Source of the DNA: a virus
Length of the DNA: 43,533 nucleotides
Direction: 5' to 3' (one strand)
IMG/VR virus record: IMGVR_UViG_3300035670_000441
Location: 1-43,533 of that record
The first letter of the stretch is position 1; every line of letters starts with the position of its first letter. This document shows, piece after piece, positions 707-38,817 of this stretch. A model generated the notes under the pieces. That model did not search any database. It was not told the DNA's origin and saw only the letters and a program-made list of their open reading frames with translations. A program made the position numbers and the translations under genes.

Positions 707-734
707 ATCATACCTGTAAATACAGGTCAGTAAA
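707..734 (-). promoter_or_regulatory. Sigma70-like promoter for the tail fibre gene with a palindrome filling its spacer
   Basis: On the minus strand the sequence reads TTTACT (729-734), a 16-nt spacer, then TATGAT (707-712, five of six matches to TATAAT). The spacer is exactly GACCTGTATTTACAGG, the phage-wide palindrome. Predicted start of transcription is near 700, giving a leader of about 20 nt that contains the tail fibre ribosome binding site. The -35 lies in the last codons of the upstream gene. A protein bound at the palindrome would block or remodel RNA polymerase. Promoter activity is inferred from sequence only. Confidence 0.55.
712..728. promoter_or_regulatory. Exact copy of the CCTGTATTTACAGG palindrome (candidate operator)
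   Basis: The plus strand reads ACCTGTAAATACAGGTC. The arms CCTGTA and TACAGG are perfect inverted repeats around an A/T centre. The site lies between the tail fibre start and the stop codon of the upstream gene, overlapping the stop by two bases. Other exact copies are at 19569, 29466 and 38557. Confidence 0.7.
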
Positions 735-1467
735 TAAGCACGCCCGCATACGCCGCCGGAGTCGACAGTGCTGAGGGGTTCGCGGAGTTCGAGTAGGTGT
801 CCATTGTCAGCCGCAGCGACATGGATCCTCCGGTTGGCGGGCCGTACCCATACGCGCAGTAGGCCACTGGCGTCTGGCCCTCGACCCCGTTCGGGTATAC
901 AAGGTCAGCGAACCGCAGGGTGTCCACCACCAGGTATCCGCCCGGTGCGGGGTTGGCTGAGGTGTACCAGCTGACCCGAAACCCTGTGTACGGCAGCGAC
1001 GTAGAAGACAGGCTCCAAGTGGACGGGTTGTGAATCGCGGCGATCTTCAGGATGGGGGCGCCGGAGTCGAAGCTGATCCGACCGTCCGCCGTGCGGACTC
1101 GTAGCCCCCACCCGGCAGTGCTCTTCATGCCGGTGGCGAACACCTTGTAGGTCACCTGCACAGAGCTTCTGGCCTGGCCACTGACGGTGTAGTTGAAGCG
1201 CAGCTGGAACCCGGTCCAGTTGCCGGAACTGCCGATGTACGTGATGCCTCGGACGATGACGTCAGTCAGCGGCCAGGTGATGGCCACTATCGGCGGCTCC
1301 ACAGACGTGATAACGCGGCTGAACGTCAGCACAGACGTGGGCCAGGCGCTGCCGCTGGTGAACACCGCAGCGGTGTACGTCCCCCCCTGAATCAGGGAGT
1401 AGTTCAGGAACACGTCGTCGATAGCAATTTCGCCCGCAGGGTTGCGGACCTTGAATCCCATGGTCAT
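727..1467 (-). CDS. Tail-tip accessory protein, unknown function
   Basis: The product has 246 residues and follows gpJ and a 98-aa gene in a run of overlapping genes; its ATG (1467) overlaps the stop codon of the gene before it (ATGA). It opens with MTMGFKVRNPAGEIAIDDVFLNY-like sequence (residues 1-23) and contains the stretch GWGLRVRTADGRISFDSG, with many beta-prone and aromatic residues and no membrane segment or signal peptide. Small proteins that begin with a Gly-hydrophobic-Asn-Gly pattern and follow gpJ are common in lambda-like phages (DUF6453-like), where they are thought to decorate the tail tip; the resemblance is from memory and weak. The position between gpJ and the fibre gene supports a virion role. 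It could also be a fibre chaperone. Confidence 0.65.
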   Translation of the reverse strand: MTMGFKVRNPAGEIAIDDVFLNYSLIQGGTYTAAVFTSGSAWPTSVLTFSRVITSVEPPIVAITWPLTDVIVRGITYIGSSGNWTGFQLRFNYTVSGQARSSVQVTYKVFATGMKSTAGWGLRVRTADGRISFDSGAPILKIAAIHNPSTWSLSSTSLPYTGFRVSWYTSANPAPGGYLVVDTLRFADLVYPNGVEGQTPVAYCAYGYGPPTGGSMSLRLTMDTYSNSANPSALSTPAAYAGVLIY

Positions 1468-1760
1468 GCGATAGCCGCTACCCTGATCGTGCCGCTGGCA
1501 TGAAAGTCAGGGCTGGTTGCGTAGGGGCGCCAGGACAGCCGGCCGCTGGCATTCAGGGTCACTACGTGCGGAACCTTGTCCGGGTCGGTCGGGGCGTAGA
1601 ACCACACCGCGTTCAAATGGTTGTAGCCGGCCGGCAGCTGGTAGCTGCCAGACTGCCCTTTGACCGCCTGCACGCTGGCGATGAAGCGCAGGAACCTCCC
1701 GTCGATGGTCAGCTGTTGGCTGCCGTCTGACCCGTAGTAGATCCTCAGTCCATAGGCCAT
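1464..1760 (-). CDS. Small tail-tip accessory protein (98 aa), unknown function
   Basis: The product has 98 residues and starts MAYGLRIYYGSDGSQQL. Its ATG at 1760 overlaps the gpJ stop by one base and its stop overlaps the start of the next gene, so the three are probably translated in a coupled way. The N-terminus has the same pattern as the 246-aa neighbour (short hydrophobic strand, then Asp/Gly turn), suggesting that both belong to one family of gpJ-associated beta proteins or arose by duplication and extension. No catalytic motif, membrane segment or cysteine is seen. Role in the tail tip is inferred from position. Confidence 0.6.
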   Translation of the reverse strand: MAYGLRIYYGSDGSQQLTIDGRFLRFIASVQAVKGQSGSYQLPAGYNHLNAVWFYAPTDPDKVPHVVTLNASGRLSWRPYATSPDFHASGTIRVAAIA

Positions 1761-4700
1761 CAGCTAAGCAACCCCATCTCAACCCGCAGCACGCCGTTGG
1801 AGTCGTACACCCGGGTGCCATTGCTGTCCCGCACGGTTCTCCCCTGCCCCGCCACCTCACCGTTCATCTCGAAGCTGCCTGCCTTGGTAAGCCGCCAACC
1901 TGTCTGCCCGGCTACGAAGTTGCTGGACGTGATCTCGCTGCCGATTTTTGCCGAAGTGATCGCAGCATCGGCGATCTTGGCTGAGGTGATTGAGGCAGCG
2001 CGGATCATGGCGTCCTGGATGACCGTCTGGCCGTCTACGACGGCGAATGCCAGGGTGTAAGTGCCTCCTGACGGGTTGTAGACGTAGAACCTGTCGGCCA
2101 CAGCCCCGATCTCGGACACATTGCCGTCCACGGAGATCCCAAACACTGCCTTCTTGCCGTTGACCGTGGCGGTCGTCACCGCACGGGCAACCGCACCATC
2201 GGTGTAGGAGGTCTGGGCGGTGAACTGCTGCTGGACGGAGGCGAACTGGTTTCCGGTGTTGCTGGTCAGCGTGTCGATCCGGGTGGACAGCGCACTGTCA
2301 CCGTTGGCCCTGGCAGTCTGCTCGCTGGTGATCGCGGCAGCGTTGGCCGTGGCCGCTGCAGCTGCGTCTGTAGCCACCTTGTCGGTCACGGCCACCCAGG
2401 CAGTGCCGTTCCAGCGCTTCGGCGTGTTGGCGCCGCCTGTGGTGTCAATCCAAAGGTTCTGTGGCAGCCGATCTGCGGCAGACGGGGCAGCAGACTGGAA
2501 GAGGATCTTCCCGCGCCCGTCAGCCGTGGTCTGGGCGGATGCAGCGGAGGCTGTCACCGTGTCAATGCGGCTGGCCAGCGCGGCTTCGGAAGTGGCCCTG
2601 GCCTCTTGCTCTGCAGTGATCCTGGCGTTGATGTCCTCGCCCACGGACGCTTCAAGCGTGGTGATACGGGAAGCCAGGGCGCCGTCGGCGGCGGCGCGGG
2701 CCACCTCCTCGGTAGTGATTCGGGCGCTGATGTCCTCGCCGATCTCAGCCTCCAGGGTGTCGATCCGGGTGGCCAGCGCCCTGTCAGCGGTGGCTCTGGC
2801 CGTCTCCTCTGTGGTCACGCGCGCCGCGATGTCATCGCCGACGGAAGCCTGCAAGGTGTCGATCCGGGTAGCCAGGGCGCTGTCGGCAGTGGCCAGGGCG
2901 GTGAGCCGCTCCTCAACCAGAGCCGCGTTCTCGCCAACAGAGGCTTCTACCGTGGTGATGCGGCTGGACAGCGCCAGGTCCTGTTCGGCACGGGTTGCCT
3001 CTTCCACTGCCACCATGGCGGTAGAGCCGGAGTTAAGGGCGAGCACGGCGGCGTGCCGGATGGCCTCCAGCTCGCTACTCCACTCAAGGGCGGTTACTCC
3101 CGCCTCCACGGCGCCCATGCGACCAACCAGGGCTTCTGCTGCTTCCCGTGCGTCAGTGGCCTCCGTGACGGCCTGGCCGGCTTCGGCGAGCGCCTGGCTG
3201 GCCTCGGCACGGGCCAGACTCAGCTCTTCGCCTACGGCCTCCACACCCACCTGGCCGGCTTCGCTCACCATCTGCTCGAATAGGCCACCAGGCTTGCGAA
3301 TGTCCGTGTCCAGCGCGGACAGGATGTCGTCGAACTCAGCGGTGGTAGTCGCCTGCGCCGGGACCCACGCAGAGAGTCCGTAGGCATTGGCGCCCCGGAC
3401 GTAGTAGTAGTAGGTGGTGTTGGCCCGCAGGCCGGCGTCGACCAGGTCGGTGGACACGCTCAGGCGCTGGGCGTTGTCCTCGATCAGGTCGTCGGTCAGT
3501 GGCGCCGCCGATCGCCAGAACTCGTACATGGCTCCGGGGTAGATGCTGCGCGGGCGCAGGGCAACGCTGAAGGTCGACACGCTAACGTCGATGCTGTCCG
3601 GCGGCGTTGGAAGCAGGAGGCCGGCAATGTTGACGACGCGGGACACCCAGGCGGAGCCGATACCCAGTGCGGTGACAGAACGCAGGCGCAGCATCCACTC
3701 CCCGCCAGAGGCATCGAGGATGTCCGTGGAAATACCCGCGCCGGTGTACACCGTGCGGAATGTTGGGTCTGTCGGCCCCTGGACATCCAGGACGTAGGTC
3801 TCCACCCGAGGGTCACTGCTCGGGGTCCAGCTCACGAGCAGCCCCTGGTGCTCGGTCCCGCCCGCCAGGTACTTGTACGCCTCGACGGTGATGTCCATGG
3901 GCGGGGCCACAGGTCCCCTCGGGAGTAGGCTGTTGCTGGGCTCAGCCAGCTGCAGGTCCAGTTCCACGCGGGCGTACTTGTTCGGGTCGTGCTCGGTGGC
4001 GGTAACCTTGTAGGTGGCGTCGGCGTTCTCAGTTACCGACACCACCCTATACAGGGGCGGCTCCACAGCGGCAGACGAGAGGATCCACAGGGCTCCTGGG
4101 ATCGGCGTGGTGCTCAGCGGCTGGACCAGCTCAACCTGGTTGCCGGCGAACATGCGAATCTCTCGGCGCTCGATGTTTCCGGCGGGCATCATCACGCTGA
4201 GATACCAGGCAAGACCCGAAGCCTCCGCTGGAACCTTGTCGAGGGTGACGAACGTCGTACCGGTCTCCACTACCCGCCCGCTCAAGCGCGCCCCGGCGCG
4301 GTCTGGGTCAGACAGCTGGATCAGGTCACCAGGGCGCAAGTCGGCGTGGTCGATGGCCGCCGAGTAGCTGACGGTCTCGGTCTCCATACGCTCGGAGTAC
4401 AGGATCCACTTGCCCAGACGGTGGGCCTGTCCACGAGAAGAACAGGCGACGGCTGTGACCTGGGTCTCTCGCCAGCCGAACAGGTCGACGCTGTCAGGGT
4501 CCTCTACGATCTCGGGCTTGGCCTTGAAAGAATCCTCGGGGTCGTTCCACATGACAATGGCGACCGAGTGCCGTTCCTTCAGGGAGGTACCGGAATACTC
4601 GAACTCGCCGTTCACCACGTTGGCCGGCGCCACCAGCTTCTTCGGGTCAGCCGGCATATCAGCGACAGCTACGACTGTGTTGGTTCCCCAGTAGGTCATC

Positions 4701-6321: not shown

Positions 6322-7037
6322 CCGACGTACCTCAGCCAGTGGGTGATCATCGGCAGGTACCGAGCAACTGGCTCGCGGATGGACAGCTTGTGCGGGTCGT
6401 ACGGACGCAGGGAGCCGGCCTGGTGCAGGGCGAGGTCGCCCTCCACCAGGATTCCGCCGTGGTTAGGTACAGGGCTCTTCAGCTGGGCCAGCCACACGTC
6501 GCCTGGCTGGGCCTCGGACTGGTCGATGCGAGCGAACCCTGCCTTGGAAAACCCCTCGGTGAACAGCTCCCCGCCGGCCTTCCACCACTCCCAGCTGCGC
6601 GGGAACTCCAGGAGTCGAATCCCCTTCTCCATCCAGTAGTAGTCGCGGATCAGGGCGTAGCAGTCGGTCACCCCGTGGCGGAATGGGCGGCCAACTAGCG
6701 GGGCCCGCTCAACCTGGTCCCCCCACCAGCAGATGTCGGAGCACTCGTTGCCGTCGGTGGAGAGGACCCCCCATGGCACAGCGGCGCCCATCTGGCCCCA
6801 CATATCGCCTTCTGACGGTACCGGGTGCCCGTCCGGATGGCTGTGAACCACGGCCAGCAGGGTTTCGGCCAAGGCTTTTGCCACCTCGGCCGGAGCTATC
6901 TCGAAATAGTTGTGCGGATCTGCCGCCACATTCCGCACCTGGCGGCAGCCCTTCCCGGTGATGACCCAGACGCCTTCTTCCGGGTAGGCCAGCAGCGCCT
7001 CTTCGCGGATCTGCCGAGAGAACTGGTCGAACATCAC
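6318..7037 (-). CDS. K: Tail tip assembly protein with JAMM and NlpC/P60 domains, lambda gpK family
   Basis: The 239-aa product joins two enzyme-like domains. An N-terminal Mov34/JAMM metalloprotease fold has the complete motif H65-x-H67-x7-S75-x2-D78. A C-terminal NlpC/P60 (C40) cysteine peptidase fold has Cys126 in HGVTDCYALIRDYYW and His193 in PNHGGILVEGD. In lambda-like phages gpK is essential for tail tip assembly; the NlpC domain may cut peptidoglycan during genome entry. Both catalytic sets look intact. Starting codons overlap the gpL stop: GTG at 7037 or ATG at 7034; the latter gives a TGATG overlap and may be the real start. Confidence 0.93.
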   Translation of the reverse strand: MMFDQFSRQIREEALLAYPEEGVWVITGKGCRQVRNVAADPHNYFEIAPAEVAKALAETLLAVVHSHPDGHPVPSEGDMWGQMGAAVPWGVLSTDGNECSDICWWGDQVERAPLVGRPFRHGVTDCYALIRDYYWMEKGIRLLEFPRSWEWWKAGGELFTEGFSKAGFARIDQSEAQPGDVWLAQLKSPVPNHGGILVEGDLALHQAGSLRPYDPHKLSIREPVARYLPMITHWLRYVG

Positions 7038-7738
7038 AGCCTCCCTACGCCAGGGAAGCCGTAGTAGGGCAGCACAGCGGCCTCGCCGAAGTGGCGCTTG
7101 CAGTCGCTGATCCGCTTCCCGCAGCGGGCTTTGGTCGGGTCGGATGTCGGCTTCCCGCCCTTGGTGTACATGGCCTCACCTGCGTAGGGGCAGGTCACAC
7201 CCTGGTAAACCCAGCGGCCACCGGACCAATACCGGAATCTGTGCGAACAGGAATCCCTGAGCACCTGGCGGGCCGGCAGCATCTTGCCCTGCTGGTCCAT
7301 TTTCGCGGACAGCTCGAACTGCAGCAGGTTGCGCTTCTGCGAGGTTTTGCGCTCGATGACAAAGTGATCCGGAGGGAACATCGCCTCCGGGTTGGGCGAG
7401 ACCCCGTCGTCCAGGTACTTGCGGTAGGTGCGGATACGCACGACCGGACACCCGACAAGGTCGTCCGAGTCTAGGACCAAGGACAGGAACGCCAGGTCCA
7501 CGGCGGCAAGAGTGAGGGTCGGCCTCGGCAGCGTGCCGGTACTGTTCCAAGAGAACCCCTCCACCGCGATGGGCAGAGGGGTGTACTCGTAGCCGTTGAA
7601 CTGGATGGGCAGGCCGTCTACGGAGGTCGGGGAGAACCGCAGGATTCCGTCCCCGAACTTTCTCGCGTCCAGCTCGAACATGACCACTACCGCGTCCTGC
7701 TCAAGTCTCTGGATGTCGGAGGCGATCAACGTGCTCAT
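7034..7738 (-). CDS. L: Tail tip protein with iron-sulfur C-terminal domain, lambda gpL family
   Basis: The 234-aa product (lambda gpL 232 aa) has an N-terminal beta-rich hub domain and a C-terminal domain with four cysteines, C164, C183, C206 and C213, in the contexts DSCSH, VTCPYAG, ARCGKR and SDCKRHF. In lambda gpL the equivalent cysteines bind a 4Fe-4S cluster, so a cluster is expected here. It forms part of the tail tip between the gpM ring and gpJ. The gene starts at ATG 7738 after a 52-nt gap that carries a copy of the phage palindrome; downstream it overlaps gpK. Confidence 0.93.
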   Translation of the reverse strand: MSTLIASDIQRLEQDAVVVMFELDARKFGDGILRFSPTSVDGLPIQFNGYEYTPLPIAVEGFSWNSTGTLPRPTLTLAAVDLAFLSLVLDSDDLVGCPVVRIRTYRKYLDDGVSPNPEAMFPPDHFVIERKTSQKRNLLQFELSAKMDQQGKMLPARQVLRDSCSHRFRYWSGGRWVYQGVTCPYAGEAMYTKGGKPTSDPTKARCGKRISDCKRHFGEAAVLPYYGFPGVGRL

Positions 7739-7762: not shown

Positions 7763-7784
7763 CCCATATTCCCATATTTACAGG
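7763..7784. promoter_or_regulatory. Near-exact palindrome copy with a duplicated half-site
   Basis: CCCATATTTACAGG at 7771-7784 matches CCTGTATTTACAGG at 12 of 14 positions, with the alternative left arm CCCATA. An extra CCCATATT (7763-7770) stands directly beside it, giving an 8-bp tandem. The site lies in the 52-nt gap between gpM and gpL genes, in an otherwise overlapping gene run. Confidence 0.5.
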
Positions 7785-13654: not shown

Positions 13655-14439
13655 TCACCTGCGGTTTTTGCGGGAGGTCTTGCGCTGCGCGGCGGCCTTT
13701 TCGGCTTCCTCGCGGGACTTCGTGTAGTGGTCGTAGAGGACGGCGTTGTCGGCCTCCTCTATGGCCCGGTAGAAGAGGGGGAGCAGGTCTTGCGGGAGTC
13801 GGAGAATGAGCTTGGCGAAGTCCGCCATGTCCCCGAACTTGATGGGCTGGTAGCCACCCTCGTACAGCTGCCGTCTCCTGTGCAGGCGAAAGAAGGAGTC
13901 GACCAGCCAGCTGAACTGAGGGGGCGGCTCCTTGAAGCCCTCGAGGGCCGGGTGTGGTTTCCCGAACTTGCCCTCGAGTTCTCGCATCGCCCGGAGCCCT
14001 TTGGCTCCGTGCGTGATCAGGAGGCGGCAGAACCCTTTACCGACTCGGCCACTTCCTCCTCGGCTTTCTCGCGGTAGTTGCCGCGATTCAGGGAGAAGTT
14101 CTCGATGAACTGCTGGAGGTCACGGAAGCGCGGGTCGGTCAGGTACTTCAGACCCAGCTCCGGGGTGTACTTCAGGGGCTCTCCGGCCGAGGCCACGCCT
14201 TCCCAGTCCAGCAGGATGTGGTTGGCGATCACCTGGGAGGAGATGTCAGCGGCCACCTTCTCAGCCGGCTCACCGCCTGCGGACAGGGTGTCCCAGTGCT
14301 GCAGGGCCAGCTTCGAGCGCAGGAACGCGCCCGCTTCGTTGTTGTGGCGTGCGATCAGGAACCGCGCACCCATGAAATTTGCCCACACACCGCCTTCTGC
14401 GGCTGCGGGGTCTACTGCGAGGGAGTCGATGTCGAGCAT
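13655..14439 (-). CDS. GT: Tail assembly chaperone fusion GT, made by -1 frameshift
   Basis: The T frame (13655-14032) lies one base back from the G frame and is open for 125 codons from the slippery heptamer AAAGGGT, past the G stop, to 13655. Reading G to the heptamer (136 codons) and then T gives 261 residues; lambda gpGT has about 280. In lambda the fusion binds the tape measure with its T part and recruits tube subunits, and is made in a few percent of translations. T ends with a Lys/Arg-rich tail. An ATG at 13987 would give a stand-alone 110-aa T, but lacks a clear ribosome binding site and lies inside a hairpin, so the fusion is the better reading. Frame shift itself is inferred. Confidence 0.8.
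14017..14439 (-). CDS. G: Tail assembly chaperone gpG
   Basis: The product has 140 residues, the same as lambda gpG, and lies between the tail tube and tape measure genes. It starts at ATG 14439 with AAAGGA upstream and ends VAESVKGSAAS. The sequence is mixed helical with an acidic C-terminus. In lambda gpG coats the tape measure during tail assembly and is absent from virions. A slippery heptamer eight codons before the end allows a -1 shift into the T frame. The upstream 81-nt gap carries a strong hairpin and a copy of the phage palindrome. Sequence identity with lambda gpG is not evident; assignment rests on position, length and the frameshift signal. Confidence 0.82.
   Translation of the reverse strand: MLDIDSLAVDPAAAEGGVWANFMGARFLIARHNNEAGAFLRSKLALQHWDTLSAGGEPAEKVAADISSQVIANHILLDWEGVASAGEPLKYTPELGLKYLTDPRFRDLQQFIENFSLNRGNYREKAEEEVAESVKGSAAS
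14032..14038 (-). other. Programmed -1 frameshift slippery site AAAGGGT
   Basis: In the G frame the codons read GTA AAG GGT; the heptamer A AAG GGT fits the X XXY YYZ rule exactly, and both tRNAs can re-pair in the -1 frame as AAA GGG. The T frame is open across and beyond it. A perfect 7-bp hairpin (CGGAGCC, loop AAAG, GGCTCCG) lies at 13992-14009, about 22 nt downstream, farther than usual for a stimulator; no classical Shine-Dalgarno stimulator is seen just upstream. Lambda uses GGGAAAG at the equivalent place. Confidence 0.75.
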
Positions 14440-14489: not shown

Positions 14490-14513
14490 CCTGTATTTAC
14501 AGTTCTACAGGTC
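14490..14513. promoter_or_regulatory. Near-exact palindrome copy plus extra half-site
   Basis: CCTGTATTTACAGT (14490-14503) matches the palindrome at 13 of 14 positions and is followed by a second right arm, TACAGGTC (14506-14513). The site lies between the tail tube stop and the hairpin at 14456-14481. No convincing promoter is seen around it, so it may act as a roadblock type site rather than a promoter operator. Confidence 0.5.
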
Positions 14514-14520
14514 GCAGTAA

Positions 14521-15555
14521 CTACGGTTTCTGCACGTAGGTGATGCAGATGACGCAGTCGTGGGAGGTGCCTTCGATCACTACCTGGCCCTTCTCCGCCA
14601 CGAGGGTGAGCTGGGTCTTGTAGTCCTGGTTCTCGCCGTCCGCGCTGTTGGTCGGAGATTGCGCCATCAGGTTGGGCAGCTTGATGGTGAAGATGCCTTC
14701 GGTGGTTTCCAGCTGCATCTCGGCGCTGAGGCGCTTGTTCTGCATGTGGGCGTCGAGCACGGTCTGGTCGTAGAAGTAGATCTCGCCAGACAGGGTGACG
14801 CCCACACGGCCGAAGCCTACGCCGGCAGCGAACTGGCTGCCCAGGCCCGGCTGCTCACGGGCGTTGTTCTGCACCTGCAGGGACGCATCGGAGAACGTCA
14901 TCGGCAGGGCCACGCCGTTCTCGTCCTTGATCACCAGGCTCTTCAGGTTGTTCGAGGAGTCGGCGATCTCGTAGTCGGCCGGAGCCAGTTTGGCGCGGGC
15001 GATACTGCCGCCCAGGCCGTTGGCCCCTGCCACGGCGTTCGCGTAGTCGGCGAACATGGAGATGGTGTTCAGGGCTACGGTGATCAGCTCACCATCACCG
15101 AACTCCATCGACATATCGTTGACCAGAGTGCCGTAGTAGCGCTCGTGGAACAGCTTGTCGGTCGGCGCCGGGCCTGCCTTGGAGGTCTTCTCGACCGCCA
15201 TGAACTTCTTGACCTCGCCGTCGAGCAGGTAGGTGCCCTTGGTGGGGTCCAAGTCGTCTACCAGCGCCCAGTCGTTCATCAGGGTCATGGACAGCATGTC
15301 CAGAACGAACGGAGCTGCCCCGAACTCGATGGTGGCCGCGCCGGACGCGCTGCCCTTGGTGTTCTTGGAGCCGGTCGGGCGGCGGTCGTTGGTGATGGCA
15401 GTGGAGGTCTTCGGCTCCTTGCTCATTTGGAACCCTTCCGTGGTGTACGGAAGGAACTGGAAGTCGACCGCGGCGAAGTCCGCAGCGGCGGTGCCGTCGC
15501 CGATGGCATAGGCCAGCGACACGGAAGATGTATCAGCAAAGCTGCGAACAGTCAT
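14521..15555 (-). CDS. Major tail tube protein (lambda gpV position)
   Basis: The 344-aa product lies between the tail terminator and the tail chaperone gene, where lambda has gpV (246 aa). It is beta-rich with many Gly, Thr and Ser residues and no coiled coil, as expected for a tube protein. Segments EFGDGELITVALNTISMF and AEMQLETTEGIFTIKLPN fit the beta-sandwich of tail tube subunits. The C-terminus (about residues 280-344) may form an extra exposed domain like the Ig-like domain of gpV. ATG 15555 has GAGG upstream. A stem-loop and palindrome follow the gene, in line with high expression relative to downstream genes. Confidence 0.82.
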   Translation of the reverse strand: MTVRSFADTSSVSLAYAIGDGTAAADFAAVDFQFLPYTTEGFQMSKEPKTSTAITNDRRPTGSKNTKGSASGAATIEFGAAPFVLDMLSMTLMNDWALVDDLDPTKGTYLLDGEVKKFMAVEKTSKAGPAPTDKLFHERYYGTLVNDMSMEFGDGELITVALNTISMFADYANAVAGANGLGGSIARAKLAPADYEIADSSNNLKSLVIKDENGVALPMTFSDASLQVQNNAREQPGLGSQFAAGVGFGRVGVTLSGEIYFYDQTVLDAHMQNKRLSAEMQLETTEGIFTIKLPNLMAQSPTNSADGENQDYKTQLTLVAEKGQVVIEGTSHDCVICITYVQKP

Positions 15556-19544: not shown

Positions 19545-19582
19545 CCCTTATTTATGGGTGCGATTGTGCCTGTAAATACAGG
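19545..19582. promoter_or_regulatory. Two palindrome sites upstream of the major capsid gene
   Basis: CCTGTAAATACAGG (19569-19582) is exact; CCCTTATTTATGGG (19545-19558) is a related site with the alternative arms and overlaps the capsid gene ribosome binding site. Both lie in the 57-nt gap between decoration and capsid genes. On the minus strand TTTACA of the first site and TAAATA of the second are 16 nt apart and could be promoter elements, but the leader would then be too short to keep the whole ribosome binding site. Confidence 0.6.
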
Positions 19583-22985: not shown

Positions 22986-22999
22986 ACTGTATTTACAGG
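22986..22999. promoter_or_regulatory. Palindrome copy in the portal leader
   Basis: ACTGTATTTACAGG matches 13 of 14 positions. It lies 3 bases before the portal start codon and about 12 to 25 nt after the predicted transcription start, in the place of the ribosome binding site. A bound protein would block transcription; as RNA the palindrome could form a small hairpin next to the start codon. Confidence 0.6.
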
Positions 23000-23017
23000 A
23001 ATACGGGTTTGGGCCCG

Positions 23018-23046
23018 ATTATAGAGAGCGCACATCGCAATGCAAA
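23018..23046 (-). promoter_or_regulatory. Strong sigma70-like promoter for portal and downstream head genes
   Basis: On the minus strand TTTGCA (23041-23046) and a consensus TATAAT (23018-23023) are separated by exactly 17 nt. The predicted start is near 23011. A rightward TTGACT (23054-23059) stands almost back to back with it for the divergent lipoprotein gene, but its -10 is unclear (TTATAT is 21 nt away). Confidence 0.6.
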
Positions 23047-25658: not shown

Positions 25659-26192
25659 CTACTGAGCCTCGCCACCCTGCTCAATCCGCTCTAGCTCAAG
25701 CAAAACCTGCTCCTGCTGCTCGCGGGTTAGGCAGCGTTCCATCACTCGCCGCAATGCCTCTTCCTGCTTCTGCACCCGGTCCAGGGTGTAGATCTTCGGC
25801 AGGTCTCTCACCATCACCTGTGTCACCTTCAGTGACAGATTCAAGGCGTCCTTCAGCGGGATGTCGTAGTCCTCGGAGTTCGCAGTGACCGTGCCGTCGG
25901 CGTTGACGATGCGGCGCAGCACTGTGTCCACCAGGCTGATCTGCTGCTTGAACGTCATCAGCACGCTGGCATCGAGGCCGGCGATCTTCGACACCATGTC
26001 CCGTCGAGCTGACGGAGACATGGCCGAGATCAGCGCTAGCTGAACGTCCTCCGGAAGTAGGTCCTGCTTGAGGGCGCCAATCACGTCCTCAACGGCGCCG
26101 GCCAAAGACGGGTCCCTATCGAACAGGGTCGACTCACCGAGCACACGCAGAGGGTTGATGCCCTCTGGCAGGAACTCCTTCCGGGCTTCCAT
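25659..26192 (-). CDS. Putative terminase small subunit
   Basis: The 177-aa product (lambda Nu1 181 aa) lies directly upstream of the terminase region. It is mostly helical: DPSLAGAVEDVIGALKQDLL, then DVQLALISAMSPSARRDMVS, and a C-terminal coiled coil (LTREQQEQVLLELERIEQGG), fitting an oligomer-forming DNA recognition subunit. No clear helix-turn-helix was recognised, so the call is by position and size. ATG 26192 overlaps the stop of the HU-like gene (TGATG). The end is followed by an AT-rich gap. Confidence 0.6.
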   Translation of the reverse strand: MEARKEFLPEGINPLRVLGESTLFDRDPSLAGAVEDVIGALKQDLLPEDVQLALISAMSPSARRDMVSKIAGLDASVLMTFKQQISLVDTVLRRIVNADGTVTANSEDYDIPLKDALNLSLKVTQVMVRDLPKIYTLDRVQKQEEALRRVMERCLTREQQEQVLLELERIEQGGEAQ

Positions 26193-26470
26193 CAGGAGCG
26201 GACCAGGTTCTTGCTGCAGGTGAAGACCAGGGCGGTACGGGCCGGCACCTGGACGGCGTGGGCCAGGACGCCGCTCTTCACGGTGCGCGGAGCACGCTTG
26301 CGGGCGGTGAACTTGCCGAACTCACGGATGGAGAGGCTGCCGCGCTCGAAGGTGATCTGCTCGATGCCGGCGATCACGGATTCGACGGTGGCTTTGGCGG
26401 CGGTCTTGGAGAGGCCGAGGTCGCTGGCGACGTGGTCGATCAGGTCCTGGCGGGAGGCGGTTTCGGTCAT
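26192..26470 (-). CDS. HU/IHF-family DNA-bending protein
   Basis: The 92-aa product has the HU/IHF pattern: an N-terminal helix pair (SRQDLIDHVASDLGLSKTAA), the ERGSLSIREFGKFTARKRAP saddle, and a C-terminal arm region ending AVQVPARTALVFTCSKNLVRS. Size is right for a complete HU. Start ATG 26470 has AAAGGA upstream. It is the first gene of the leftward late operon and overlaps the small terminase gene. In lambda, host IHF bends cosB for terminase binding; a phage-encoded homolog next to the terminase genes suggests the same role supplied by the phage. It may also compact phage DNA or act on replication or transcription in the neighbouring control region. Confidence 0.88.
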   Translation of the reverse strand: MTETASRQDLIDHVASDLGLSKTAAKATVESVIAGIEQITFERGSLSIREFGKFTARKRAPRTVKSGVLAHAVQVPARTALVFTCSKNLVRS

Positions 26471-26496: not shown

Positions 26497-26572
26497 GTAT
26501 GGGTAGCCGTATCTCTGTATTGACGGGCGAAGAATACGGATTTTATGGGGATATGTAAATACGGGTGTATGG
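26497..26572 (-). promoter_or_regulatory. Leftward late promoter inside a cluster of palindrome half-sites
   Basis: On the minus strand TTTACA (26554-26559), a 17-nt spacer and TATTCT (26531-26536) form a plausible promoter, with a start near 26524 and a leader of about 54 nt to the HU-like gene. The -35 is part of a degenerate palindrome (TATGTAAATACGGG, 26552-26565, 11 of 14). The surroundings hold at least five TAYGG or rc half-sites (near 26498, 26534, 26543, 26561, 26569), spaced roughly 9 to 35 bp, more than anywhere else in the window. Confidence 0.5.
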
Positions 26573-26582
26573 GAGAATTTCG

Positions 26583-26651
26583 TGGGGATTTGGGGTGTTG
26601 CGGAGGGGGACGGGGTGGGCCTGGTGGAGGGGTGACGGGGTCGGCGAGGGG
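26583..26651 (+). other. G-rich tract upstream of the late operon
   Basis: Eight runs of three to five G occur in 69 bases on the plus strand, some only 1 to 7 nt apart, so local G-quadruplex formation is possible. The leftward transcript would be C-rich and G-poor here, the composition known for Rho loading (rut) sites. No gene is present. Confidence 0.45.
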
Positions 26652-26693
26652 GAGAAAGCCAGTAACGGCGGGGTTTACGGCGGGGTGAAAGGG

Positions 26694-26708
26694 TGTAAGA
26701 GTATAAGG
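26694..26708 (-). promoter_or_regulatory. Shared TTAC element, left copy
   Basis: The minus strand reads CCTTATACTCTTACA, matching CCTTACACTCTTACA at 30571-30585 on the plus strand in 14 of 15 positions, and both are followed by CxxTTTC or CTTTC. The copies lie in the outward-facing control regions of the two arms, each reading toward its arm. A common regulator or replication protein could bind them. Confidence 0.5.
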
Positions 26709-26838
26709 GGCTTAGGAAATTGGTAAATTTTTGGGCGTGGACCTAGGCGGGCGCGGTGGCTTCGGCCTGACAAAAAACAAGGGGCGGGGCGTCTCGGTTT
26801 TTTCTTCTGTTTTTTCTTCAATTTGTCCGCCTTTTTTG

Positions 26839-26868
26839 TTGACTTACTCCAATTGCCCCCCCTAATAT
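26839..26868 (+). promoter_or_regulatory. Possible rightward promoter
   Basis: TTGACT (26839-26844), an 18-nt spacer and TAATAT (26863-26868) could direct rightward transcription from about 26875 into the structured region and on to the gene at 27567. The spacer has a run of seven C, and three oligo-T tracts precede the -35. The match is moderate. Confidence 0.35.
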
Positions 26869-26894
26869 TCATCCCAAGCCGGACGGATTAACCG

Positions 26895-27210
26895 ACCGGC
26901 CTAGGGGGGCGGCCTAGTCGCCCCCCGCCAGCGCCCCGCGCTGGCCGTTCTTTAACACTGCCAGCCCATGCCCCGCACCTATGCGGCATGGATTGACGCC
27001 AGCCCCGGCGACGGGGTGACGCGCCCCCCTTTGCCCCGCCACTGGCGGGGGATGCTACGGCACTGGCCTAGCATCCCCCGGCCTAGTGGATGACGGGGCA
27101 ATGGTCAAACAGTAGACGGCCTAACGGCCTGAGCTGGGGGTAAATCAGGCGCGACCATGCCCCGGCGGCAAAGTGTTACCGGCTTGTCACCCTACGGGGA
27201 TGACGGGCGG
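26895..27210 (+). ncRNA. Highly structured non-coding segment (candidate leader RNA or origin)
   Basis: No plausible coding frame, but many GC-rich inverted repeats. From left: GGGGGGCG/CGCCCCCC; GCCAGCGC-CCC-GCGCTGGC; an ATGCC/GGCAT hairpin near 26966-26990; CCCCG-GCGA-CGGGG with a GNRA-type loop. Then comes a 71-bp imperfect palindrome (27031-27101): TTGCCCCG pairs with CGGGGCAA, CCACT with AGTGG, and GGGGGATGCTA (27047-27057) with TAGCATCCCCC (27069-27079). CCCCGCC and GGCGGGG (27034-27050) form another hairpin that excludes the large stem. GGCCTAG or GGCCTAA occurs five times between 26898 and 27124. Such a region could be a regulatory leader RNA, an ncRNA, or a replication origin or cos-like site extruding a cruciform. 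Confidence 0.45.
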
Positions 27211-27566
27211 AGCTTTGCCTGCTGAATAGGGCGAGCATGGTTCTAGGCTCGGGCCTGTATTTATGGGTTTATGTTCCCCCGTATATACCGCCGACGTTAT
27301 TTAACAATCCACCGCTTTGCCCCGTGATCCGCGCCACCAGTGCGCCCCGCCGTTGCCCCCGTCTGTTATCGCCGCCAGTGCCGACGATAGCGAAAAAGAC
27401 GCAAACAACGGCCAGCACTGGCGGCCTTATCACTGCAAAGCACGGAAACGAAAACGGCGCCCCCAACAACGGGGCGCCCCATTGCCCCCAGTGGCTTTGA
27501 CTATGCGCCCCACCATCGGGGCGCATAGCAAAACCCACTAGAAAACAGAAAACAGGAAATCACAAA
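27211..27566. other. Leader of the first rightward gene: palindrome copy and two hairpins
   Basis: CCTGTATTTATGGG (27254-27267) is a 12-of-14 palindrome copy; 16 bases including it recur exactly, inverted, at 33497-33512. Two strong hairpins follow: GGCGCCCC/GGGGCGCC (27456-27478) and an 11-bp stem CTATGCGCCCC/GGGGCGCATAG (27501-27528). TTGCCCC is repeated at 27317, 27353 and 27482. No credible gene is seen; short frames here lack ribosome binding sites. Confidence 0.5.
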
Positions 27567-28277
27567 ATGAAAAAAGCCCCCGTTATCACCATCCGCGGCC
27601 AGATCATCACTGCCCAGCAAATTAACGGCATCGCCGGCAAGCTGGCCAGCCAATCGGAAAACATCACCGTCTGGGCGAACTACTGCGCCATCCATGCCGT
27701 CGCCTTCCATAACACTGCCCCCCTTGCCGCCATGCTGCAAAATCCGGCATTCAAGCTGGCGAGCGGCAAGGCTTCCAAGCTGGGCGGCGAAGTGCTGGCT
27801 TACATTCGAGCCCACGCCCCGCAAATCGGCCTAGATGCCGAAAGCGGCGCCCCGAAAGTGGCCAAGATGGGCGAACAAAATCCCCAGCGCGGCCAGTTCC
27901 AAAACCCTGCCGAGCGTGACGAAAACGGCAAGGCCGCCATTGTTGCCCCCGGTGACTTCGCCCTGACATTCGACGAATGGCGCAATCTGGAGAAGGCGAC
28001 CAAGGAAAAGGCCGAGCCGAAAATTAAGGCCGCCACCATTGCCAAAAAACTGGCCGAGGTTGGTGCCGCCATGCAAGCCGGAAAACTGGTGGCCAGCGCC
28101 GAGGAACTGGCCGAGCTGGCCGAGGCTGCAAAGGCGCTTTTTCTGGCGCTGGATTCGCAGCGCAGCGCCGAGGCTGCAAAGGCCGAGCCGGTGGACGTGG
28201 CAAAGGCCGCCGAGCTGCTGAAAAGCGGCCAAGGTGGCAAGGCGACCCGCGCCGGCAAGAAAGTGGCCGCAGTCTAA
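27567..28277 (+). CDS. Unknown protein, Ala/Lys-rich C-terminus; first gene of the rightward side
   Basis: The 236-aa product starts MKKAPVITIRGQIITAQQIN. Residues 1-100 form a compact-looking domain (ITVWANYCAIHAVAFHNTAP); residues about 150-236 are Ala/Lys/Glu-rich and helical, ending in a basic KATRAGKKVAAV, which could bind nucleic acid. ATG 27567 has AGGAAA upstream, in a leader shared with the gene at 28964. A terminator-like hairpin follows at once, so it may be expressed as a single-gene unit at high level. No family was recognised. A DNA- or RNA-binding role would suit its place beside the control region but is a guess. Confidence 0.7.
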   Translation: MKKAPVITIRGQIITAQQINGIAGKLASQSENITVWANYCAIHAVAFHNTAPLAAMLQNPAFKLASGKASKLGGEVLAYIRAHAPQIGLDAESGAPKVAKMGEQNPQRGQFQNPAERDENGKAAIVAPGDFALTFDEWRNLEKATKEKAEPKIKAATIAKKLAEVGAAMQAGKLVASAEELAELAEAAKALFLALDSQRSAEAAKAEPVDVAKAAELLKSGQGGKATRAGKKVAAV

Positions 28278-28963: not shown

Positions 28964-29458
28964 ATGACCAACGTAACCCCGCTGACCACCGCATCCCTGC
29001 CGTCGTTCCGCCTGCAAAAGCTGGCCGACGCTCACAGCGCCAAGGTCATCCCGCGTCTGGATCTGCCCACCCCGAACATCTACTTCGTCACGGTCAACTG
29101 CGCTATCGACGGCAGTGTGAACCACCTCTACGTGGCCGCTGACTTCTCCGGCGCCGCCCTGCGCAAGGTGCAGAACATCTGCTCCGACAAGCACGGCTTC
29201 CGCCCCTACCGCAGCAACAGCGTCATCAAGATGCGCCGGCTACGTTTGCAGGACATGCTGGAAACCCCGTCGGCGCTGGGCAAGGCCATCGAAACGGCCA
29301 AGGAGCTGGGCGAGAAGGACATCGTCGCCGCCCTGGAGAAACGCCCCGAGCAGATTGCCACCCTGCTGCAAGGTCCGGCTGCCGAGCGTGTTGACTTCGA
29401 CGCTGTCGCCCGAGCCCTCGCCGAGCAGCTGCGCACCCTGGACAAACTCCCGGCGTAA
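28964..29458 (+). CDS. Unknown protein (164 aa)
   Basis: The product starts MTNVTPLTTASLPSFRLQKL. The middle (NIYFVTVNCAIDGSVNHLYV) is beta-like; the C-terminal half is helical and charged (ALGKAIETAKELGEKDIVAA). No known domain was recognised. ATG 28964 follows AGGAAATCACGAAA, almost the same leader as the gene at 27567, so the two may be translated or regulated alike. The gene is followed after 5 bases by an exact copy of the phage palindrome. Confidence 0.7.
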   Translation: MTNVTPLTTASLPSFRLQKLADAHSAKVIPRLDLPTPNIYFVTVNCAIDGSVNHLYVAADFSGAALRKVQNICSDKHGFRPYRSNSVIKMRRLRLQDMLETPSALGKAIETAKELGEKDIVAALEKRPEQIATLLQGPAAERVDFDAVARALAEQLRTLDKLPA

Positions 29459-29463
29459 CTGCC

Positions 29464-29481
29464 GACCTGTATTTACAGGTC
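29464..29481. promoter_or_regulatory. Longest exact palindrome copy, GACCTGTATTTACAGGTC
   Basis: Here the arms extend to 8 bp (GACCTGTA / TACAGGTC) around TT. The site lies just after the stop of the 164-aa gene and 75 bp before the next start. No -10 element follows, so it is not a promoter operator of the type at 707-734. Confidence 0.7.
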
Positions 29482-29555: not shown

Positions 29556-29837
29556 ATGTTCGATTTCCAGCAGGTTCCCAGCCGCACCGGCGGCACCATC
29601 TCCCGCCTCGACGACGGCGACGTTGTCATGCAGGTGGCCTTCCACACCGGCGAGTGCAATTCCGGCTTCGATTTTCTGCGCATCAGCGGCGCTGTGACCG
29701 TCGGCGACGTGCAGCGTTTCAGTACCCAGTACCACATGACGCCCAGCGCCACGCCGTACATCGAGGACGTCGCCATCGACCTGCGGGCCATCGCCATCTT
29801 CACGGGCAGCACCAAGGATCGCCGCCATGCAGCCTGA
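29556..29837 (+). CDS. Unknown protein (93 aa)
   Basis: The product starts MFDFQQVPSRTGGTISRLDD and looks like a small all-beta protein (GDVVMQVAFHTGECNSGFDF, then VAIDLRAIAIFTGSTKDRRH). The start is chosen because AAAGGTGG lies seven bases upstream, in the second 19-bp repeat. It overlaps the next gene by 11 bases. Function unknown. Confidence 0.6.
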   Translation: MFDFQQVPSRTGGTISRLDDGDVVMQVAFHTGECNSGFDFLRISGAVTVGDVQRFSTQYHMTPSATPYIEDVAIDLRAIAIFTGSTKDRRHAA

Positions 29838-30165: not shown

Positions 30166-30191
30166 GATACAGCGAGCATTCTCGCTGTATC
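30166..30191. terminator. Perfect 11-bp hairpin GATACAGCGAG-CATT-CTCGCTGTATC
   Basis: The two arms are perfectly complementary with a 4-nt loop. No T run follows on either strand, so it could be a rho-assisted terminator of the small membrane gene unit or a protein-binding dyad. It marks the border to an AT-rich stretch. Confidence 0.5.
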
Positions 30192-30362
30192 TAAATATGT
30201 AGATATATTGGTAGGGGTACCTCCTATATATATATATTTCTCTTATATAGAAGTAGTAGTAGTAGTAGGGGGTATATTTTGGTTGTGTACTTTATGCAGA
30301 GGTACTCTAATGGAGAGGTACCCCACAGACGTGCTACAAAACGCAAAAATTTTTTAGAGGCG
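30192..30362. repeat. AT-rich stretch with simple repeats and GGTACC dyads
   Basis: The stretch includes a TA-dinucleotide run (about 30225-30237), a TAG trinucleotide run (about 30251-30267), and three GGTAC-centred sites: GGGGTACCTC (30214-30223), AGAGGTACTCT (30298-30308) and GAGGTACCCC (30315-30324). The first and last are exact inverted repeats of each other. AT-rich easily melting DNA flanked by dyads is typical of replication origins or of strongly regulated promoters. Confidence 0.45.
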
Positions 30363-30437
30363 CTGAACCCCTATATCTGAACCTGGTGTGTGGTTTTCGC
30401 AGATGGGCATAGATTCCCGCCCTGCACGACGCCCACG

Positions 30438-30458
30438 CCCTCCCCCAGCCCCTCCCCC
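30438..30458 (-). other. G-quadruplex-forming tract on the minus strand
   Basis: The plus strand has C-runs of 3, 5, 4 and 5 separated by T, AG and T. The minus strand therefore has four G-runs with loops of only 1, 2 and 1 nt, which predicts a very stable intramolecular quadruplex. On the rightward transcript the whole 30420-30500 stretch is C-rich and G-poor, like a Rho loading site. Confidence 0.65.
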
Positions 30459-30562
30459 TCCACCTCCAACCGACGCCCTCCCCCTGATTCTACGCGGCCT
30501 CCAGCCCGACGCCCTGAATCACAACGGTGCCCACACCGTCCCCGAGGAGGACAACATAAAAT

Positions 30563-30960
30563 CACGGCCTCCTTACACTCTTACACTTTCCAGTTGAGAG
30601 TCATTCCGTACAACTAAATCCCTGCATATTCGCTCTTAAATGAGAATCATATGCAGGCGACGAACGGTAGGTGTTTTTCAGACCCTTTTGCCAACTTGCT
30701 ACGGGACTTTTTATGTTCTTACACCGAGTTGGTCAAATAACGCTCAGTTTTCCCTGAGTCTCATGTCCTTATATGTCCGCCACTGTCCGGGCTTTATAAG
30801 GACATAAGATTCCTATGCCAACTTGCCCCGAAGGAACTTGCGAAAGTTATCTTCGTACTCCGCTTACAAACTTACACTTTCTCAAGATGTCCGTACTTGT
30901 CTTGAAGTTTTTAGTGTAGGCCGTTTGACATCTTACAAGTTTATACCCCCGCCCCTCCTC
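30563..30960. promoter_or_regulatory. Repeat-rich control region upstream of the right arm
   Basis: Several short repeat families are packed here. CTTACAC occurs at 30572, 30580, 30718 and 30871 and CTTACAA at 30863 and 30932; 30572-30591 and 30863-30882 agree in 17 of 20 bases. CCTGCATAT/ATATGCAGG (30621-30657) is a 9-bp inverted repeat. TGCCAACTTGC is repeated exactly at 30689 and 30816. TGTCC stands at 30764, 30774 and 30784, one helical turn apart, and ATGTCCTTAT/ATAAGGACAT (30763-30805) is a 10-bp inverted repeat. A perfect TTGACA (30925-30930) has no -10 at proper distance. The layout resembles an origin or a multi-operator early promoter region; no gene is seen. Confidence 0.55.
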
Positions 30961-33467: not shown

Positions 33468-33848
33468 ATGAACAAGCACCATGTTTATGCGCGATTAACC
33501 CATAAATACAGGGCTGGCTGGTCCCATCTCGACCGCCACGAATATGTCTTCGACCTCAAGTTGACCCCGCGCAAGCTGGTCAACCGCACTGACGACGGCG
33601 ACCTCGACCACCTCCTATACGGCAGGCTCAGCGCCAAGCAGCGTGAGCAGGCCAGGAAGGTGTGGGAGAAGCTGCCGCGACAGGATCGAGGGCAGTTCAA
33701 ACACTGGCTCTGCCGCACCATCTCCAGTGAGTTCGTCAGCGGCTGCCAGTGCGAGCACGACTGCTGCGGCCACTACCAGAGCTACGCGGCAACCGCCATC
33801 TACGGCCGCCGCGTGGTGGTCAATGTCCACAGTTACCGCAATTTGTGA
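33468..33848 (+). CDS. Unknown protein (126 aa) with a Cys/His cluster; gene carries a palindrome copy
   Basis: The product is basic in its first half (LTPRKLVNR, LSAKQREQARKVWEKLPRQD) and has the cluster CQCEHDCCGHY near residues 93-103, a potential metal site. The start ATG 33468 lies one base after the previous stop. CCCATAAATACAGG (33499-33512), a 12-of-14 palindrome copy, lies at codons 11-15; 16 bases here are identical to the inverse of 27254-27269. A second in-frame start after the site is not evident. Possible nucleic-acid binder; function unknown. Confidence 0.65.
   Translation: MNKHHVYARLTHKYRAGWSHLDRHEYVFDLKLTPRKLVNRTDDGDLDHLLYGRLSAKQREQARKVWEKLPRQDRGQFKHWLCRTISSEFVSGCQCEHDCCGHYQSYAATAIYGRRVVVNVHSYRNL
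33499..33512. promoter_or_regulatory. Palindrome copy with CCCATA arm inside a coding region
   Basis: CCCATAAATACAGG matches 12 of 14 positions and falls within the first codons of the 126-aa gene. Its AT content stands out from the GC-rich gene. Together with two flanking A it equals the reverse complement of 27254-27269 (AACCCATAAATACAGG). Confidence 0.5.
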
Positions 33849-35587: not shown

Positions 35588-35590
35588 GCC

Positions 35591-36768: not shown

Positions 36769-36961
36769 GGTCAAGGTCCTGATCGACCTCAAGGAGCTGG
36801 ACGTGATGCTCAACCGCGCCATCGTGGCCGGTATCCACCTCCAGCAGATCAACAAATGGCCCGCCGGCCTCTCCCCGCTCCCCGACAACTTCAGGGAGGC
36901 GCGGGACGAGCAGCGCGAGGACCTTCTGCAGTACCACCACATTCCGAGGCGAAGAGCATGA
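36761..36961 (+). CDS. Unknown protein (66 aa)
   Basis: The product starts MAEVKVLIDLKELDVMLNRA and ends in a basic IPRRRA. The N-terminal strand and helix followed by PLPDNFREARDEQREDLLQY suggest a small soluble protein. The stop overlaps the next start (ATGA). No family recognised. Confidence 0.6.
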   Translation: MAEVKVLIDLKELDVMLNRAIVAGIHLQQINKWPAGLSPLPDNFREARDEQREDLLQYHHIPRRRA

Positions 36962-37380: not shown

Positions 37381-37383
37381 TAG

Positions 37384-37557
37384 GTGCGCAAAATCCTGAT
37401 CGTCAACCACTACCACAAGGGCTGGGCAGAGGAAATCGCCGGCCTTCTCCGCTCCGTCAAGGCAGTAGAAGAGAAAGCCAAGAAAGACCCCTTCCACCCG
37501 GTGCCCCGCTCCAAAGGCGAGAAGGCCCGCAACCGAAGTCGCAGAGGTGTTCGATGA
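37384..37557 (+). CDS. Small basic protein (57 aa), GTG start
   Basis: GTG 37384 follows the previous stop by 3 bases, with GGAGG ten bases upstream. The product reads MRKILIVNHYHKGWAEEIAG at its start and ends in a Lys/Arg-rich tail (KGEKARNRSRRGVR). The stop overlaps the ATG of the next gene (ATGA). Context and basic tail suggest a real nucleic-acid binding peptide; function unknown. Confidence 0.55.
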   Translation: MRKILIVNHYHKGWAEEIAGLLRSVKAVEEKAKKDPFHPVPRSKGEKARNRSRRGVR

Positions 37558-37685
37558 AACCCGTCTACGTTGAGCGAATGGTCGGAGGTCAGCCGCAGGA
37601 CCTCCTGGTGGATGACTGGTACTGGCAGGCGTGGAACGGCTGCTTCTGCCGTATCGAGGACCGGCGGCAGTGGTGCGACAAATGA
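37554..37685 (+). CDS. Very small Trp/Cys-rich protein (43 aa)
   Basis: The product starts MKPVYVERMVGGQPQDLLVD and continues with a Trp-dense stretch (DDWYWQAWNGCFCRIEDRRQ) ending WCDK. It overlaps both neighbours by ATGA. Three cysteines and five tryptophans in 43 residues are unusual. Its size gives little support beyond position, coupling and codon use. Confidence 0.5.
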   Translation: MKPVYVERMVGGQPQDLLVDDWYWQAWNGCFCRIEDRRQWCDK

Positions 37686-37846
37686 GCGGCCTCCTGTATC
37701 AGCTGGAGACCAAGGCCATGCCTGGCCAGATCATGCGGATAGACGGCCCCTGGGACACCTGGGGCCGAGTGATCAAGCACCAGGCGTCGGGGTTCCACTT
37801 GATTCGAGGCCTCGGCCACAAGAAGCCAGTGGAGGTGCAACGATGA
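37682..37846 (+). CDS. Small protein (54 aa), unknown
   Basis: The product starts MSGLLYQLETKAMPGQIMRI and ends HKKPVEVQR. It overlaps the previous stop (ATGA) and the next start by four bases. It may be a small beta protein (WGRVIKHQASGFHLIRGLGH). Function unknown. Confidence 0.55.
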   Translation: MSGLLYQLETKAMPGQIMRIDGPWDTWGRVIKHQASGFHLIRGLGHKKPVEVQR

Positions 37847-38817
37847 CCCGCCTGCTGACACCCTTGGCGCTGGCCCTGGCCGGCGTCACCGCCGCCTCGG
37901 TCGGAATGGCCGTCCACCGGCTGATAGCAGACCCGGTGCTGGCATGGATGTTCAGCGGCGCTGCGGGGCTGCTGGACGTGTTCAAGTACGCCGCCTGGCC
38001 GGTGGCCGCCCTTTTGCTCAGCGCGAAGCGTAGGGCCCTTGCAGGCTGCCTGGCGGCGTGCGCCCTACTCTTTGCCGGCGTGTCCGGCTGGGCGACCTTC
38101 GACAGGGTGGTCGGGGCGGTAGAGAACCGTGCCGCCGGCGGCGAGCAACGGCTGATCGACCTGGCCGAGCAGCAGGAGGAAGGTCGCAAGCGAGTGGCAG
38201 ACCTGGACCTGCAGCTGGTCGAGGTGCGGCGCCAAGCCGCCTGGATGCGTGAGCGTGGCATGGTCAGCAAGGCGCAGGAGCTGGAGGGCGGGGCCATTGC
38301 CCGGGCCGATGCCGAGCGCACCGCCGCCCTGGGCCGGGTGGCCGCCGCCGCCGAGGAGCGTCAGCAGATCATCGCCGGCCGGGGTGCCGCGCTACCCCAG
38401 CGGGTGGTTCACCTCCTCGGCCTGGGATTCGCCCTGGCCCTGGAGGTGGTGCCGGTCCTGATCTTCCTCACCGGCGGCAAGCCAGCTGCTGAGTTACCGA
38501 GCCTGCCGGACACCGAGTTACCGCCGTCGACGAAGGAGTTACTGGCGACCCAGGAACCTGTATTTACAGGAGAACACGCGGAAGTTTTCGAGGTGGCAGT
38601 GCCGGTCAAGTTGATCGAGCAGAAGCCCAAGCCAGCCCAGCCGGGCCGCGACGAGGACCTGCTGAAGGCGCTGCTTGCCGGCGGTGAGGAACTGATGAAG
38701 GTCAAGGACTTCGCCAAAGCCCACAGCATTGGCAACACCCGGGCCTCCGCCGTCTACAAGGCAGCAGAAGCAGCAGGCCACATCAGGAAGACAGCAGCCG
38801 GCTACGTCGTAGCCTGA
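37843..38817 (+). CDS. Four-helix membrane protein with coiled-coil loop and C-terminal helix-turn-helix-like domain
   Basis: The 324-aa product has hydrophobic segments at about residues 4-24, 32-60, 64-84 and 187-210. AKRR (61-64) lies between the second and third, so by the positive-inside rule both ends are in the cytoplasm and residues 85-186, a Glu/Arg/Ala-rich coiled coil, are outside. The C-terminal tail (211-324) has a Pro/Glu-rich linker and a domain (271-324) with KVKDFAKAHSIGNTRASAVY, AAEAAGHIRKTAAGYVV, which reads like a winged helix-turn-helix. This layout resembles membrane-bound regulators (ToxR/CadC type, only in principle) or membrane replication anchors such as phi29 p16.7. 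An exact palindrome copy lies at codons 238-243, in the linker. The gene is followed by an AT-rich 44-bp gap. Confidence 0.65.
   Translation: MTRLLTPLALALAGVTAASVGMAVHRLIADPVLAWMFSGAAGLLDVFKYAAWPVAALLLSAKRRALAGCLAACALLFAGVSGWATFDRVVGAVENRAAGGEQRLIDLAEQQEEGRKRVADLDLQLVEVRRQAAWMRERGMVSKAQELEGGAIARADAERTAALGRVAAAAEERQQIIAGRGAALPQRVVHLLGLGFALALEVVPVLIFLTGGKPAAELPSLPDTELPPSTKELLATQEPVFTGEHAEVFEVAVPVKLIEQKPKPAQPGRDEDLLKALLAGGEELMKVKDFAKAHSIGNTRASAVYKAAEAAGHIRKTAAGYVVA
38557..38570. promoter_or_regulatory. Exact palindrome copy inside the membrane/HTH gene
   Basis: CCTGTATTTACAGG encodes P-V-F-T-G in the linker between membrane part and DNA-binding part. AT-rich DNA is unusual for this gene. If the gene product or a partner binds the palindrome, the site could give feedback or a roadblock. 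Confidence 0.65.

Follow-up and report, generated by a model that had tools for sequence, protein, structure and literature searches.

The 43.5-kb virus record analysed here (the window, that is, the whole stretch of DNA under study), which comes from a group of temperate, Pseudomonas-type siphoviruses of 80-90 kb, carries a phage-wide set of short sites that also occur in its close relatives. The existence and conservation of these operators is practically certain. Judged from the sequences, they probably constitute a dispersed-operator regulon that would be stoperator-like in its logic and run by a ribbon-helix-helix (RHH) regulator. Sites, their 8-bp phase, location and conservation, co-occurrence and promoter overlap were all computed.

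Scattered sites at conserved gene junctions

The 14-mer CCTGTATTTACAGG occurs in the window 4 times without mismatch and 7 times as a near copy. The exact copies lie where the initial annotation had placed them (713-726 and 19569-19582 on the minus strand, 29466-29479 and 38557-38570 on the plus strand), and its six near copies, at 7771, 14490, 19545, 22986, 27254 and 33499, are all present. With up to three mismatches allowed, 18 matches were observed, compared to a mean of 1.30 and a maximum of 5 in 100 dinucleotide-preserving shuffles, so shuffled sequence does not give similar counts. For CTGTAAATACAG, 6 copies were observed and about 0 expected under an order-2 Markov model (log10 p = -22), and the reversed, uncomplemented control pattern of the 14-mer had 0 matches in the window. 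Chance or composition as the source of the sites is excluded by the shuffles, the Markov model and the simulated-sequence background. Exact-pattern scans of IMG/VR were uninformative because the exact 14-mer occurred, among the matches listed, mostly as single chance copies. Sites were counted with a weight matrix trained on relatives and applied to ten contigs.

The terminase of the window shares 98% identity with that of contig G001, 76-80% with those of other contigs of the same group, and about 60% with those of the Pseudomonas phages Lana, PMBT3 and UAntarctica. The weight matrix detected 189 sites in the ten contigs, about 3 per 10 kb versus about 0.1 in simulated sequence. Site density was 2.5-4.7 per 10 kb over the ten genus contigs, with 18-28 sites in each contig of 60-83 kb, and each of the nine close relatives (terminase identity 76-98%) had sites; the pattern is thus conserved in relatives. 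No sites above the weight-matrix background were found in the strictly lytic cousins Lana and PMBT3, in UAntarctica or in contigs G010 and G013.

For site placement, genes were called with a caller that closely reproduces the Lana annotation. Although gaps make up 7.5% of bases, 168 of the 189 sites lie wholly within them, and 124 fall in the 50 nt preceding a start codon, where 7% would be expected. The sites mostly occupy orthologous junctions across relatives: of the 19 families of downstream genes represented in five or more genomes, 15 have a site in at least 80% of those genomes. Sites precede the genes for the portal (10/10), the capsid (10/10), the HU/IHF-like protein (9/10), the helicase (6/6) and the DNA polymerase (6/6). 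In the window, 9 of 11 weight-matrix sites are in gaps (Table 1); the initial description of a repeat at many gene boundaries holds for most sites only, as those at 33499 and 38557 lie in ORFs.

Table 1 Arrays, promoters and related features of the window
Feature	Position	Strand	Context and conservation
Window end matching G019	1..2514		99.96% identity with end of contig G019 (L246)
3-box array including exact 14-mer 713-726	697..726	-	32 nt upstream of gene 3-680 (-)
3-box array CCCATA TT CCCATA TT TACAGG	7763..7784	-	Box chaining, 8-bp register; 32 nt upstream of tail gene 7034-7738 (-); kept in 8/8 relatives
4-box array	14490..14527	-	50 nt upstream of gene 14017-14439 (-); kept in 8/8 relatives
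4-box array, two pairs (19545-19558, 19569-19582)	19545..19582	-	9 and 33 nt upstream of major capsid gene 18351-19535 (-); kept in 10/10 relatives
3-box array	22986..23007	-	Over expected transcript start, between promoter and portal gene (21477-22982, -); kept in 10/10
Sigma-70-like promoter TTTGCA-17-TATAAT	23018..23046	-	Immediately upstream of portal array
Array, 3 weaker boxes	26498..26519	-	Upstream of HU/IHF-like and terminase operon
Promoter TTTACA-17-TATTCT	26531-26559	-	For HU/IHF-like gene 26192-26470
4-box array	26544..26573	-	Its TTTACA is the -35 of the HU/IHF-like gene promoter
3-box array in control region	27254..27283	+	Upstream of gene 27567-28277 (+)
Exact 14-mer, 2 boxes	29466..29479	+	Between genes 28964-29458 and 29556-29837 (+)
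2 boxes (CCTGTATTTATGGG)	33499..33512	-	Inside ORF 33468-33848, 31 nt past its ATG
Exact 14-mer	38557..38570	+	Inside ORF 37843-38817 (+); kept in relative G021 (8216)

Other features of the window were recorded alongside the sites. The HU/IHF-like protein (26192-26470) is encoded by the first gene of the late operon and is kept in all relatives. Between the divergent gene arms lies a long non-coding control region (26580-27560) that has several strong stems resembling terminators and in which the word GGCCTAG recurs. An AT-rich, non-coding segment with TATATATA and (TAG)n runs, located between early genes (30180-30960), is a possible replication origin. At its left end (1-355), the window contains a repeated Ala/Val-rich coding segment, in a tail gene cut by the window end, that matches itself and G019/G020 in several registers.

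Array structure and promoter overlap

The initial annotation had regarded a 14-bp palindrome as the basic unit. Instead, the unit is a 6-bp box, TAC[A/G]G[G/C] in either orientation, and two facing boxes give the 14-bp palindrome. TACAGG half-sites, whichever way they face, recur at spacings of 8, 16, 24 and 32 bp, with 65, 26, 33 and 5 direct and 117, 40, 11 and 8 inverted pairs at these distances (0-3 each in simulation). Since half-sites are phased at multiples of 8, a site amounts to a short array with an 8-bp step; a single palindromic site is ruled out by half-sites that are both direct and inverted. Because close relatives are not independent, single-genome tests weigh more than these pooled counts: gap arrays at step 8 numbered 26 in G008 versus 0-7 at other steps, and 13 in G022 versus 0-3. 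Chained boxes form arrays of 2-5 in patterns such as <>, <<>, <>> and <><>, and additional half-sites are present in the aligned flanks of sites. The window contains further boxes beyond those first reported, at 697, 7763, 14506-14527, 22986-23007 and 26498-26573, all in the 8-bp register. As a separate observation, an 8-bp-periodic ATACAAGTAAATAAGTATTTAAGGA (38833-38861) abuts the start codon at 38862 and is also found in G021 (8492).

Relative to transcription, 74 sites have the same and 71 the opposite orientation. An orientation-dependent element or promoter was rejected, as the core is unbiased and the aligned flanks contain no fixed promoter hexamer. On average, 3.83 of 5 arm positions were paired, versus 3.84 with shuffled arms (p 0.63). 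With arms that lack RNA-stem covariation and a core that lacks strand bias, we read the sites as an operator that acts as double-stranded DNA and has an 8-bp step. Start-associated repeats in a translational sense, another suggestion of the initial annotation, are disfavoured by the same lack of covariation. A small 5'UTR hairpin (CCUGU-AUUU-ACAGG) that tunes translation at the RNA level would agree with the many sites located a few nt upstream of a ribosome-binding site, but it is extremely improbable given arms without covariation, an asymmetric core without strand preference and arrays built of direct repeats.

Upstream alignments revealed sigma-70-like promoters beside or beneath some of the arrays. 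At the portal gene, the promoter ends just before the array, which covers roughly +5 to +26, and in the HU leader the -35 element lies within the array. As arrays overlap promoters or sit at the transcript start, a bound protein would be expected to prevent transcription from starting or from proceeding past its early phase. Only about 11% of sites had a recognisable, clear sigma-70 promoter, and the others would therefore need weak-promoter or roadblock action; roadblock or stoperator action is possible at sites without a clear promoter.

Temperate lineages and a candidate RHH regulator

Site-bearing contigs that extend into the relevant region have genes for both an integrase (PF00589/PF13356) and a Gifsy-type excisionase. 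One of them, G008, is a whole prophage that runs from within a DegP/MucD-like gene into lepA. Its insertion is in the lepA 5' end, and because both junctions carry a lepA-like 5' end (L204:150-720, L208:2600-2940), the phage apparently brings along a substitute for the start of lepA. No named genome for the bacterial host was found among the bacterial contigs scanned by terminase and by RHH. PMBT3 is reported to be lytic and to have neither integrase nor repressor (PMC8421299).

Next to the integrase gene, the temperate contigs that cover the region have an arsR-like gene, the gene for an RHH-like protein of 68-71 aa and another gene of 205-230 aa. Temperate lineages have the integrase, xis, arsR-like and RHH genes, all of which are absent from the site-less Lana, PMBT3, UAntarctica and G013. 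The region is missing from the window; in G019 it includes the arsR-like gene, RHH at G019:1487-1693 and a helicase. Among PDB sequences, the RHH-like protein was most similar to antitoxins of RHH type, ParD for example (E about 0.1), and its matches to Pfam RHH models stayed below cut-off. In a monomer model, which was of modest confidence (mean pLDDT 66), helices lie at 30-43 and 47-57 after a strand, and Foldseek with this model retrieved CopASO, Arc, CopG, ParG and AmrZ, all with weak E-values.

The predicted DNA-reading strand of the RHH protein varies between lineages along with the box, a pairing that covers three lineages and is too small for statistics. The strand KKFT(M/L)DMP accompanies TACAGG boxes in all genus lineages. 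The more diverged temperate cousin G022 has KKLTVLLP in place of KKFTMDMP; it carries TACGGC arrays at the 8-bp step, among them arrays upstream of the arsR-like operon, just upstream of the RHH gene and upstream of the helicase, and has no excess of TACAGG. In G010, an RHH protein with the strand LTVKVDMP occurs with ParA and 8-bp-phased TACG-type boxes (TACGTA), the longest array (6 boxes) lying upstream of the parA/ParA-RHH operon. As G010 has RHH and arrays without the arsR-like gene, we take RHH to be the factor common to the three box lineages, and this protein is the likely binder of the arrays.

The arsR-like winged-helix protein (87 aa) might bind the sites instead and be the repressor. 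It co-occurs with the RHH protein and with sites in every temperate lineage, and it is encoded by the first gene of its operon, with an array upstream. Its role as the binder is nonetheless improbable: an 8-bp step and both box orientations would be unexpected for ArsR/SmtB dimers, its recognition-helix region varies (QANASRH, QATASRQ, QSNISRH, QSNISHH) among TACAGG lineages in which the RHH strand is constant, and the arrays of G010 occur without an arsR-like homologue.

According to the explanation that we favour, all sites would be operators of one phage-encoded regulator, the RHH protein. One RHH dimer would occupy each box and neighbouring dimers would cooperate, as in MetJ or Omega. Bound over promoters or transcript starts, the protein would stop transcription of early, late and int/xis-side genes at initiation or early in elongation, and as such would be the lysogeny repressor or part thereof. 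It would also limit its own synthesis. A separate promoter serves the RHH gene in six contigs (G002, G008, G012, G019-G021). It reads TTGACA-17-TAGGAT in three lineages and TTGACG-17-TAGTGT in the clade of the window; because boxes overlie the -35, this suggests autoregulation.

We infer a negative sign of control, and repression in lysogeny is the role we consider the more probable main one. The same operators and RHH binder could alternatively belong to a lytic-cycle, Cro/Arc-like regulator that switches early and late promoters off or sets their timing. Arc of P22 is an RHH protein that represses in the lytic phase, and a role of this kind would be consistent with an RHH gene that runs in the same direction as the replication genes, in line with their operon, and with sites that cover both early and late genes. 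We nevertheless regard it as unlikely, given that the RHH gene has its own promoter and adjoins int/xis, and that lytic relatives with the same gene order manage without the system.

Partition offers a further reading, in which the arrays would serve an RHH ParB as scattered parS-like centromere sites, similar to those of plasmid prophages. ParA adjoins the RHH protein in G010, with arrays upstream, and Omega sites also serve as promoter operators (PMC9499535). However, ParA was found in none of the genus contigs and only in G010, the genus encodes an integrase and has a chromosomal prophage in lepA, and most arrays comprise only 2-4 boxes spread genome-wide, which makes a centromere role very improbable. 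For G010 itself, a 91.6-kb phage without the genus integrase, the partition-like ParA-RHH operon (L191:9503-10470) suggests a plasmid-like prophage state. As a ParB-type RHH protein is still paired with ParA in that lineage, we tentatively propose, as a scenario slightly short of even chances, that an RHH protein, perhaps from a plasmid-type ParB, became the immunity repressor of the genus through 20-30 phage-wide 8-bp-step arrays, with box and RHH strand changing together between lineages.

Relation to known dispersed-operator systems

To our knowledge, few phage systems have repressor sites scattered over the whole genome. They are L5 stoperators, SP-beta SPBRE and P1 C1, and their proteins are unrelated. 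Cluster A (L5-like) mycobacteriophages have as many as about 30 scattered stoperators, mostly facing one way in the L5 clade; the motif varies between lineages with the repressor, and an operator lies near the repressor promoter (PMC6550527). The repressor of L5, a monomer with two domains, binds asymmetric sites of 13 bp (PMC9283540). The stoperator-like regulon suggested by the initial annotation survives in part. Temperate phages carry many scattered sites with a lineage-variable motif and a putative repressor role, phage-wide at gene starts or promoters and at orthologous junctions, and lytic relatives lack them. Unlike L5 stoperators, the sites form 8-bp-step arrays without one-way orientation and have an RHH-like candidate, and the parts examined contained no recognisable L5-type repressor.

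Like SPBRE, the sites are a repeated element at intergenic and promoter regions of a large prophage that was first found in silico; SPBRE, however, is a 15-bp motif, bound by the tyrosine-recombinase-fold repressor MrpR (PMC10516654), rather than an 8-bp-step array. Dispersal over the whole genome is shared with P1 C1, which has 22 operators (PMC8546580). The P1 site differs in being 17-bp and asymmetric, and its repressor is unrelated. MetJ uses 8-bp boxes. Omega, the RHH ParB of pSM19035, binds tandem boxes, direct or inverted, over promoters and co-regulates several genes (PMC9499535). Boxes at a fixed short step, direct or inverted and overlapping promoters, are thus common to Omega, MetJ and the present arrays. 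Omega has a 7-bp step and 7-10 repeats and acts in partition with ParA, whereas here 2-5 boxes at an 8-bp step recur at about 25 loci in a genus without ParA. P22 Arc and Mnt are RHH regulators in the immunity region of a temperate phage, but act at one local operator region instead of phage-wide.

By analogy, the logic of the system matches stoperators, SPBRE/MrpR and P1 C1, and the form of its operators matches the RHH tandem boxes of Omega and MetJ. As the L5 orientation feature is missing and ParA absent, it would stand apart from L5 and from RHH ParABS within dispersed-operator systems. A literature search on RHH and prophage lysogeny operators found nothing equivalent among the papers covered. 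If our reading is true, this would be a fourth such system, based on RHH tandem boxes, with dispersed silencing having evolved repeatedly, and a novel mode of control in which an entire prophage is run from dispersed binding sites. It would be a compact system, its lineages differing in both box and DNA-reading strand, with a concrete regulator candidate for a group whose temperate members appear undescribed so far. Lytic and temperate cousins share gene order and differ in the operator layer.

In the gaps of Lana, PMBT3 and UAntarctica, 8-bp autocorrelation was not significant except in one helicase leader. As a point against the RHH reading, the helicase leader of all relatives, including lytic ones without RHH, contains an 8-bp-periodic (ATAAG-like) element right after the helicase promoter (Lana 53016, UAntarctica 70734, PMBT3 about 56460-56524, G010 62768-62800).
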